A stretch of 42,872 nt of DNA. Origin: Clostridia bacterium. GTDB lineage: Bacteria; Bacillota; Clostridia; Oscillospirales; Acutalibacteraceae. This document shows, in pieces, positions 25,287 to 42,872 of this stretch (positions within the stretch are counted from its first letter, which is position 1; every line of letters begins with the position of its first letter). The DNA is taken from NCBI GenBank assembly GCA_017623235.1, contig JAGAPN010000032.1:1-42872 (forward strand), written 5' to 3'. The position numbers and the translations under genes are program-made. Below the pieces are notes generated by a model. The model was given only the letters and a program-made list of their open reading frames with translations. It did no database searches and was not told the DNA's origin.

Positions 25287-25389
25287 TGTCAGCGGGATGC
25301 GGAAAACAGACCGCCGGGAAAGCTCCCGTTCGTCCGTCGGACAACTCCCCGTCCCGACGGCACTCTACGCCTGTTAACCTACTCTAACA
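25287..25389 (-). ncRNA. Tetrahydrofolate (THF) riboswitch aptamer
   Basis: Read on the minus strand, the parts of the THF aptamer occur in order. P1 is TGTTAG/CTGACA (25389-25384 with 25292-25287). Next comes the conserved AGTAG. P2 is AACAG/CTGTT, flanked inside by GCGTAGAGTG on one side and GGCGGT on the other. P3 is CCGTCGG/CCGACGG, with a purine-rich GGGGAGTTGT loop. A CGAA junction leads to the short P4, GGGA...TCCC, and the conserved GCATCC closes before P1. At 103 nt it has the expected size, and it precedes a FolT gene, its typical target. It senses reduced folate and should lower folT operon expression when folate is ample. Confidence 0.92.
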
Positions 25390-41785: not shown

Positions 41786-41816
41786 TTAATAAATATGTTT
41801 TTTGGATGTGAATATT

Positions 41817-42566
41817 TTGGATAACAGATATTATGATAACGTCATCGCAGAGATGACCCCCTTCTTTGAAGAAAACGGCTTTAAGGCCGACGGGGATATT
41901 TTTAAAAGCGATACCAAGGCCCTTAAGGTAGAATATAACGAAACAAAGCAGCTCTATAACCTGCTGGCCGCCGACCTTGAAGAGGGTAAGGTGGGTGAAT
42001 TCAGCATAATCACCTCCTACCTTTTTGACGACAGCCAGAACGCTAAGGATGCCGCCGCCGTGGGTATTGACTTTGTTGACACCGCCCGCAAGGCTATGGG
42101 TATAAAGGCAAAGAAAAAGTCGGTAACGGGCGAGGCCGACCTGCCCGTTGCTACAGGCTCTGCCGTTAACGTTTCTACCCTGGCCTCAAAGCTGCTGGCC
42201 CACTATCCCAATCTTAAGGAAACCTACAGGGCAGAAACCTCTGCCAAAGGCAAGTTCCTTTATCTTGATTTCTTTACACGCTACTTCGTGCCCGAAATCA
42301 GGGCTACTCTGGACGGGGGTAACAAAAAGGCCACTAAGAAGCTTATAGATACCCTGATAAACGTATTTGTAACAGGCGATAAGGCTGTTTCCACCCTGGT
42401 TGTTGCCGTACTGGCCGCCGCTATCGGTACTAACGTTGACCGCTTTAAGGCTGCTACCGCTCATATGGATGAGTGCCAGCCCCTTATCACCTCGGTAAAT
42501 CAGCAGATAGACCTGCTGATAAGAAATAAGAAGTTCGCCAAGGCAATGAACTTTAAGGCAGAATAA
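41817..42566 (+). CDS. Conserved-looking protein of unknown function
   Basis: 249 aa, cytoplasmic, no membrane segment. There is no usable ATG: in-frame TTG 41802, GTG 41808 and TTG 41817 are possible; 41817 is preferred because GGATGTG lies about 7-9 nt upstream. The N-terminal 100 residues look like a mixed alpha/beta domain (Y-N-V-L-A-type strands, F-F-E-E-N-G-F-K near 18). A lysine-rich linker (K-A-K-K-K) precedes a mainly helical C-terminal domain with T-L-I-N-V-F-V-T-G-D-K-A-V. I do not recognise the family. It has its own strong promoter and a downstream terminator, so it is monocistronic. Confidence 0.75.
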   Translation: MDNRYYDNVIAEMTPFFEENGFKADGDIFKSDTKALKVEYNETKQLYNLLAADLEEGKVGEFSIITSYLFDDSQNAKDAAAVGIDFVDTARKAMGIKAKKKSVTGEADLPVATGSAVNVSTLASKLLAHYPNLKETYRAETSAKGKFLYLDFFTRYFVPEIRATLDGGNKKATKKLIDTLINVFVTGDKAVSTLVVAVLAAAIGTNVDRFKAATAHMDECQPLITSVNQQIDLLIRNKKFAKAMNFKAE

Positions 42567-42711
42567 AAAAATAAAGCCGCTATCTTAAAGTGTAATATCG
42601 TTAGCGAAGTTTTTGTTTTGGCATAAAATATTATATCTGGATAGAACCAGCATCGCATTTGTGAGTACAAAATGCAGTCGGGCAGAAACCCAAGCCCACT
42701 TAACAACAGAA
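42567..42711 (+). other. 3' region of the hypothetical gene with small stem-loops
   Basis: No gene is seen. GCATTT/AAATGC (about 42653-42675) and GGGC/GCCC (about 42680-42697) can form small stem-loops in the stretch before the terminator. It may be a long 3' UTR or hold a small RNA; no known family is recognised. Confidence 0.3.
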
Positions 42712-42752
42712 AAAGAGAAGATTTGTTTTGTAACAGGTCTTCTCTTTCTTTT
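42712..42752 (+). terminator. Terminator after the hypothetical gene
   Basis: AAAGAGAAGA (42712-42721) pairs with TCTTCTCTTT (42738-42747) around a 16-nt loop, followed by CTTTTTATC. Confidence 0.8.
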
Positions 42753-42761
42753 TATCTGTAT

Positions 42762-42872
42762 AGTGATATTCCGACTTTGTCGGAGTGATATTTTTGCTAA
42801 GCAAAAGTGATATTGAAACCTTACGGTTTCAGTGATATTTTATTCGCCTCTAAAACTCGCGAAGCGAATAAC
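42762..42872. repeat. Array of mini-hairpins with AGTGATATT linkers (continues past right edge)
   Basis: The 9-mer AGTGATATT occurs exactly at 42762-42770, 42784-42792, 42806-42814 and 42831-42839. Each copy is followed by a perfect hairpin whose stem differs: CCGAC-TTT-GTCGG (42771-42783), TTTGC-TAA-GCAAA (42793-42805), GAAACC-TTAC-GGTTTC (42815-42830) and TTATTCGC with GCGAATAA (42840-42871, 16-nt loop). Period is 22, 22 and 25 nt. No coding potential is seen. Confidence 0.85.

Follow-up and report, generated by a model that had tools for sequence, protein, structure and literature searches.

Among the described systems closest to the locus reported here are the intervening sequences (IVSs) of 23S rRNA that carry an S23/PF05635 gene. 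As given in the accessible text of PMC4990558, the Coxiella IVS has tandem heptamers (GACAGAT) before its S23 gene and terminal inverted repeats; the same text calls the function and origin of IVSs unclear and cites a role for the gene in mobility as a hypothesis. In the accessible part of a second source, the 23S rRNA IVP is named only in a legend on CRISPR-linked genes (PMC10910872). Gut-1 RNA is listed for the human gut only, and is counted among likely noncoding RNAs, in the available portion of Weinberg 2010 (PMC2864571). A literature search, with most subscription papers and bioRxiv preprints outside its reach, found no paper linking PF05635, hairpin arrays and Gut-1.

The array described here ends a window of 42,872 nt, the whole stretch of DNA that was analysed, which is one entire contig (C52) of assembly G000 (1.61 Mb, 84 contigs, 71% complete). 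The elements to which the array belongs share with rRNA IVSs their tandem 7-nt units, protein family and sporadic distribution, and probably complementary arms. They differ from IVSs in that variable hairpins separate the heptamers, the gene comes after both arms, the location is intergenic and many copies have no gene. The window copy itself has the repeated 7-nt units (GTGATAT, four times) and has neither a PF05635 gene nor a location in a structured-RNA gene. It is probably a gene-less copy of an IVS-like selfish element that would be moved or maintained by a PF05635 protein recognising the heptamer.

The window array and the complete element

The first-pass annotation of this DNA had described four exact copies of a 9-mer between hairpins, and four copies of AGTGATATT do indeed start at 42762, 42784, 42806 and 42831, where 0.31 are expected in the 42,872-nt window and none of 100 shuffles reached four. 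The linker is fixed, as that annotation held, but its unit has seven nucleotides, GTGATAT; the T and A at the ends of the 9-mer form the outer pair of each stem. A chance frequency of the 9-mer elsewhere in the genome had been named as the result that would speak against the array, and the whole assembly holds 31 copies, as against 10 of the reversed control. Similarly, GTGATAT pairs spaced by 10-40 nt number 15 in the assembly and 1 in the control. From 42763 to 42838 the heptamer alternates with three perfect hairpins (TCCGACTTTGTCGGA, TTTTGCTAAGCAAAA and TGAAACCTTACGGTTTCA), followed by a core, a short hairpin and the start of a reversed linker, at which the contig ends. Three of the four reported hairpin inserts are therefore hairpins throughout, whereas the fourth, of 32 nt, consists of an asymmetric core (TTTATTCGCC, TCTAAAAC), another short hairpin of 11 nt (TCGCGAAGCGA) and the first five bases of the reversed linker, as read from the sequence and interpreted through complete copies. 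The features are as follows.

42712-42754, plus strand: terminator-like hairpin and T-run between the upstream gene and R1, read from the sequence
42761-42843, plus strand: covariance-model hit to Rfam RF01706 (Gut-1 RNA) at 44.8 bits, for a gathering score of 50
42763-42769, minus strand, which is the element's orientation: linker R1, GTGATAT on the plus strand, outer end of the right arm
42770-42784, no strand: hairpin h7, TCCGAC-TTT-GTCGGA, from sequence and element parse
42785-42791, minus strand: linker R2, from the heptamer copies
42792-42806, no strand: hairpin h6, TTTTGC-TAA-GCAAAA, from sequence and element parse
42807-42813, minus strand: linker R3, from the heptamer copies
42814-42831, no strand: hairpin h5, TGAAACC-TTAC-GGTTTCA, from sequence and element parse
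42832-42838, minus strand: linker R4, from the heptamer copies
42839-42848, minus strand: core, GGCGAATAAA as read on that strand; its counterpart in complete relatives is complementary to the end of L1 and the 5′ half of h1
42849-42867, minus strand: remaining core TCTAAAAC and hairpin h4, TCGC-GAA-GCGA, from sequence and element parse
42868-42872, minus strand: first five bases of linker L4, from the sequence; the other left-arm parts are missing as the contig ends

Further copies in the same assembly, on C31, C36, C37 and C73 and at the end of contig C4, reveal that the window array is one arm only. Both arms are present in the complete copies on C31, C37 and C73. What the window holds of this dispersed hairpin element, in which two opposed arms stand on either side of a conserved core, is its right arm, core and h4. 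The start expected for its missing half, GTTTTATTCGCC, was not found in the assembly.

Parsing of loci L001-L204 gave 226 single arms or elements, including 119 with two arms. Among the two-armed ones, 4+4 linkers is the most frequent form (40 of 119; loci overlap, such that some elements are counted more than once). The array is cut at the end of the window, as had been noted, but arrays of this kind are not open-ended as a rule. Growth by slippage, which had also been proposed, is not borne out as a rule either, since the number of units per arm is mostly fixed. An exception is L161 (4329-4694), where 16 tandem linkers represent a four-hairpin unit amplified four times; arms can sometimes expand.

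Removal of duplicates left 106 parsed elements, of which 101 are clearly oriented and 5 were dropped for lack of a clear orientation. Oriented by the core, the order of parts is hairpin h0; L1 h1 L2 h2 L3 h3 L4 h4; a core ending in GGCGAATATA; and R4 h5 R3 h6 R2 h7 R1. Hairpins h1 (TCGCC..GGCGA) and h2 (TGCTTCGCA) are fairly constant, and h3 and h5-h7 are variable. Directly beside L1, 55 of 97 elements have a hairpin of 8 bp or more, as do 15 of 99 at the opposite end.

The final ten bases of the core are complementary to bases 3-7 of L1 joined with the first five bases of h1, perfectly so in 45 of 61 elements. The mean is 9.46 paired positions of 10, as against a shuffled mean of 8.88 and a highest value of 9.10 in 1000 shuffles, and the helix covaries, one position showing A-T, T-A and C-G and a second showing C-G and T-A. 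A common trunk formed by pairing of the linkers of both arms was also considered and rejected: L1 is GTTATAT or GTTTTAT in 31 of 37 oriented 4+4 elements and R1 is ATATCAC in 27 of 37, hence the two mismatch.

Dispersal and insertion sites

A scan of named genomes for three linkers in a row returned at least 114 stretches. Among the matches listed, nearly all are titled as metagenome-assembled Clostridia, Clostridiales or Oscillospiraceae, with herbivore guts in many of the names, and two are Bacillota records. Candidate elements outside Clostridia, in Planktothricoides (L166) and Methanosarcina (L186), were rejected as plain tandem repeats without hairpin arms. The GTGATAT two-linker pattern occurs in 43 of 60 related genomes, up to 56 times per genome as against 0-2 for reversed controls, with some chance matches among the isolated ones.

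The 77 near-complete distinct elements include 90 pairs that are at least 85% identical and have usable flanks. By nucleotide or translated search, homologous flanks were found in 6 of these 90 pairs, and pairs at least 90% identical share flanks in 2 of 24 cases; identity drops quickly beyond the element arms. Near-identical elements thus stand in unrelated surroundings, which indicates that they have been dispersed, and the earlier suggestion that the array is mobile holds in this sense. No target-site duplication was found, since 1 of 64 flank pairs scored 15 or more, with a null of 1.6%, and membership of the MITEs was rejected by this measure. Inverted similarity of at least 13 between the flanks was seen in 6 of 64 pairs, a count that has no matching null.

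No shared neighbour gene was found for the gene-less copies: the three largest neighbour families occur at 4 of 101 loci each, and one of these is PF05635. Of 101 elements, 9 have a tRNA gene no more than 150 nt from the left end and 3 have one as close to the right end, with about one per side expected; all of these genes point at the element. Gene-bearing elements lie near tRNA, 6S (L338) or 5S rRNA (L332) genes in several of 20 loci. On viral contigs, a hairpin arm of at least three linkers or a full element was found in 11 of 120 loci; the one full element, L208, lies on a contig from IMG/VR.

The window copy adjoins a protein gene, downstream of which it lies; next to the copy, searches at the gathering threshold gave no RNA gene. 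The gene just upstream (41802-42566, plus strand) encodes 254 aa with a weak DUF7674 match (20.4 bits, cutoff 27), and is present in all 10 same-genus genomes searched. In nine same-genus genomes, the 3′ flanks of its orthologues have no GTGATAT array within 520 nt (with shorter flanks for L447 and L451, and with differing synteny). These array-free flanks suit a species-specific insertion, though none is a clean empty site. Between the upstream gene and the array, at 42635-42700, lies a recurrent motif GGATAGAACCAGCATCGCATTTGTGAGTAC..GTCGGGCAGAAACCCAAGCCCAC; a similar GGATAGAACCAGCATCGCATTTGTATG.. adjoins the PF05635 gene in L340.

Association with PF05635 genes

Over 107 nt the window piece has 90.7% identity to the copy in L346, and over 112 nt it has 83% identity to that in L338, both from species of the same genus. 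Both of these copies carry a PF05635 gene. In L058, L085, L158, L162, L338 and L346 the PF05635 gene directly follows the right arm, with a promoter-like sequence and a ribosome-binding site in between. In L158 the gene seems to be split over two reading frames. PF05635 genes are present in 34 of 60 relatives and in 0 of 14 control genomes. Assembly G000 has three, on C67, C14 and C7, and none on the window contig, at the end of which the copy is cut. All three belong to other clades, and no GTGATAT-clade gene was found in this 71% complete assembly.

The L338 protein was modelled as a four-helix bundle (pLDDT 97), with TM 0.97 to the S23 protein 2rld (E 4.7e-8). The fold also resembles that of Avd, the accessory protein of diversity-generating retroelements (DGRs), with TM 0.80 to 4dwl, though at E 0.15. 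By eye, loci L439-L441 resemble DGR loci.

The arrays were also sought without prior choice of a linker, by a test requiring that the same 6-mer occur on both strands, in two or more spaced copies on each. From 94 PF05635 genes, 92 were examined (G056 C19 and G040 C108 were left out), and three with less than 250 nt upstream were set aside, giving 89. Upstream regions reached a score of at least 6 in 29 of 89 cases, as against 2 of 89 for downstream regions and 4 of 1780 for shuffles. The respective counts were 40, 3 and 23 at a score of at least 5, and 56, 10 and 134 at a score of at least 4. The remaining 33 genes scored below 4 and have no array by this test, which misses some clear cases with varied linkers (L336, L340 and L343). 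The right flanks of the copies in L108, L171 and L176 have a promoter-like TTGNTT-N17-TATAAT beside R1, like gene-bearing copies; perhaps these copies derive from gene-bearing ones by gene loss.

Many PF05635 genes of this order share the design but use other linkers, and the linker words vary among PF05635 clades. By eye and by word count, the linker of the clade with ILRDKSK..FAK is GTTATAT/GTGATAT, that of another clade is TCATAAC, and others have AGCTAAAT, ATGAAATCC, CAATTCAT, ATGAATAA and further words, some of 7 nt and some seemingly longer. Among the 67 genes with a repeated word, of 85 with enough protein and upstream sequence, sharing of the linker correlates with protein identity (Mantel r 0.38, 0 of 2000 permutations). 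The word is shared in a fraction of 0.87 of pairs with at least 80% protein identity, 0.37 at 60-80% and 0.07 at 45-60%. Pairs from different genomes that are at least 60% identical share the word in 87 of 188 cases, whereas pairs from the same genome that are less than 45% identical do so in only 2 of 34. As judged from these sequence comparisons, the linker is tied more closely to the protein clade than to the genome. Part of this association is due to common descent of gene and array.

Correspondingly, other linkers were predicted to form dispersed hairpin arrays where the gene of their clade is present, a genome with at least two matches being scored as positive. Arrays of CAATTCAT were found in 5 of 5 gene-bearing genomes (4 of 5 when the gene's own array is removed) and 2 of 55 others; of AGCTAAAT in 2 of 2 and 3 of 58; of TCATAAC in 3 of 3 and 13 of 57; and of GTGATAT in 10 of 11 and 22 of 49. 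These counts include the gene's own array, which holds the sole matches in G000 (AGCTAAAT), G055 (CAATTCAT) and G047 (TCATAAC), and clade membership was assigned by eye from the table of identities and words, or from upstream sequence for L333. Arrays for which no clade gene was found occur for CAATTCAT in G046 and G052, for AGCTAAAT in G056 and G058 (one G056 PF05635 match was left out) and for TCATAAC in G007 (one gene there is broken). GTGATAT pairs with no placed GTGATAT-clade gene number 30 in G046, 20 in G013, 17 in G047, 15 in G000 and 13 in G019. The link between linker and clade gene is clear but not exclusive.

The favoured reading is a selfish element served by its PF05635 protein. 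A complete copy comprises, often, a strong hairpin or terminator, then a left arm of four linkers with hairpins, a core and a right arm of four linkers reversed, to which gene-bearing copies add the promoter-like sequence and the gene for the four-helix bundle. In the mechanism proposed here, an oligomer of the PF05635 protein would read the heptamer of its own clade, repeated along each arm and positioned by the hairpins, and could thereby act on gene-bearing and gene-less copies alike. Copies would spread into sites beside hairpins or terminators, RNA genes included. We infer the oligomeric state, the binding of heptamers and a role of binding in driving movement or maintenance; PF05635 is not known to have nuclease activity. 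For this family, a short word that changes with the protein clade is a concrete candidate target, through which the idea of a mobility role becomes testable.

The position of the arms just upstream of the gene's promoter-like sequence, and the tracking of protein clade by linker, would also be expected of a cis-regulatory or chromosome-organising site, at which heptamer binding by the PF05635 protein would regulate its own promoter or compact the DNA, with passive dispersal. This explanation is unlikely, although it is the strongest of the alternatives: copies adjoin varied genes, the largest neighbour families accounting for 4 of 101 loci, and they occupy non-homologous sites, which needs some means of spread.

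PF05635 genes were also surveyed across the phylum, where 29 of 149 genomes have matches, 26 above the cut-off. Among the 28 loci studied, Rfam places the gene inside 23S rRNA in L424, L428, L431 and L435 and inside RNase P RNA in L430. In L430 (1229-2003) and L432, a PF05635 gene with complementary arms appears to be inserted in RNase P RNA, which Rfam confirms for L430 only. Upstream of the genes in the 28 loci, self-identity is 0.38 at lags of 7 and 14 and 0.25-0.30 elsewhere, a 7-nt periodicity. Complementary arms surround the gene in 12 of 28 loci, as against 1.3% of 756 mismatched pairs and 5 of 28 in the same-strand control. A broader reading can be offered tentatively, with rather less confidence than that for the window copy. 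The PF05635 (S23/IVP) proteins may be mobility or maintenance factors of widespread, transposase-free selfish elements, each clade reading its own word of about 7 nt in two opposed arms, with or without hairpins. The Gut-1 'RNA', the ribosomal IVSs and the RNase P RNA insertions would then be forms of one type that settles beside or inside nucleic-acid hairpins.

Stem pairing, Gut-1 RNA and known repeat classes

The 287 distinct hairpins contain 1627 stem pairs, of which 1601 are Watson-Crick, 12 G.T, 9 A.C and 5 other. As a control, the acceptor stems of 91 predicted tRNAs from the same loci, less those with fewer than 6 of 7 positions paired, gave 596 Watson-Crick, 36 G.T, 3 A.C and no other pairs among 635. 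The G.T fraction is therefore 0.7% in element stems and 5.7% in tRNA stems (Fisher p 1e-11). The stem parser accepted G.T freely together with one mismatch, such that the search did not disfavour G.T. When the pairs are tabulated by position, each of h3, h6 and h7 has a position at which all four Watson-Crick types occur. The stems vary yet stay Watson-Crick and remain paired across species, in agreement with the earlier view that the inserts are kept as structures rather than as sequences; stems not conserved between strains, the outcome said to contradict that view, were not what was seen.

A structured noncoding RNA of the Gut-1 family, with hairpins conserved because the RNA works, is a somewhat less probable alternative than the regulatory site. 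At the gathering threshold, an Rfam search gave no match at the window array; at a relaxed threshold the array scores 44.8 bits to Gut-1 RNA (RF01706; E 6.4e-8), short of the threshold of 50. Arms in L011 (55.4 bits), L338 (52.8), L369 (52.1) and L381 (59.7) do exceed it. The model spans one arm, linkers and hairpins included, and in the complete C31 copy (L011) it matches both arms, at 55.4 and 47.0 bits, on opposite strands, which speaks against this alternative. A complete copy folds far below its shuffles as RNA (z -7.8), as such an RNA would; it folds equally well as DNA (z -8.0). In gene-bearing copies, moreover, promoter-like sequence stands downstream of the arms. The absence of a G.T excess, with A.C pairs nearly as numerous as G.T ones, argues against selection on an RNA strand, and an RNA role appears disfavoured by the pairing statistics, although recent repair of palindromes could produce the same pattern. 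What was published as a likely noncoding RNA here forms half of a two-armed, dispersed, PF05635-linked element whose stems lack RNA-like tolerance of G.U. What is catalogued as a noncoding RNA may accordingly be one half of a selfish DNA element.

REP/REPIN repeats and MITEs resemble the elements described here in being short, dispersed, intergenic, palindromic and non-coding, and differ in that here stems vary, linkers are constant, no target duplication was seen and copy number does not follow Y1 transposases. Movement as a REP- or MITE-like repeat by a Y1/RAYT-type transposase (IS200/IS605 kin), with PF05635 as a passenger, would suit hairpin-rich, dispersed, non-coding copies and the weak Y1 homologues of G000, G003, G007 and G009, but is very improbable: the two genomes richest in GTGATAT pairs, G059 (56) and G039 (51), have no Y1_Tnp match, and neither have G013 and G047, while G044 has five Y1 matches and one GTGATAT pair. 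To judge from the two richest genomes, Y1 transposases appear dispensable. REP/RAYT membership was rejected for want of Y1 dependence and of constant stems, the latter being the contrast with REP elements that the first-pass annotation had drawn. Its contrast with CRISPR arrays likewise stands, and that class was rejected, because the inserts are self-complementary, with 287 distinct near-perfect hairpins in the parsed arms, for which the parser required a stem. Elsewhere in the window, a THF riboswitch (RF01831, 87.3 bits) lies on the minus strand at 25288-25388.
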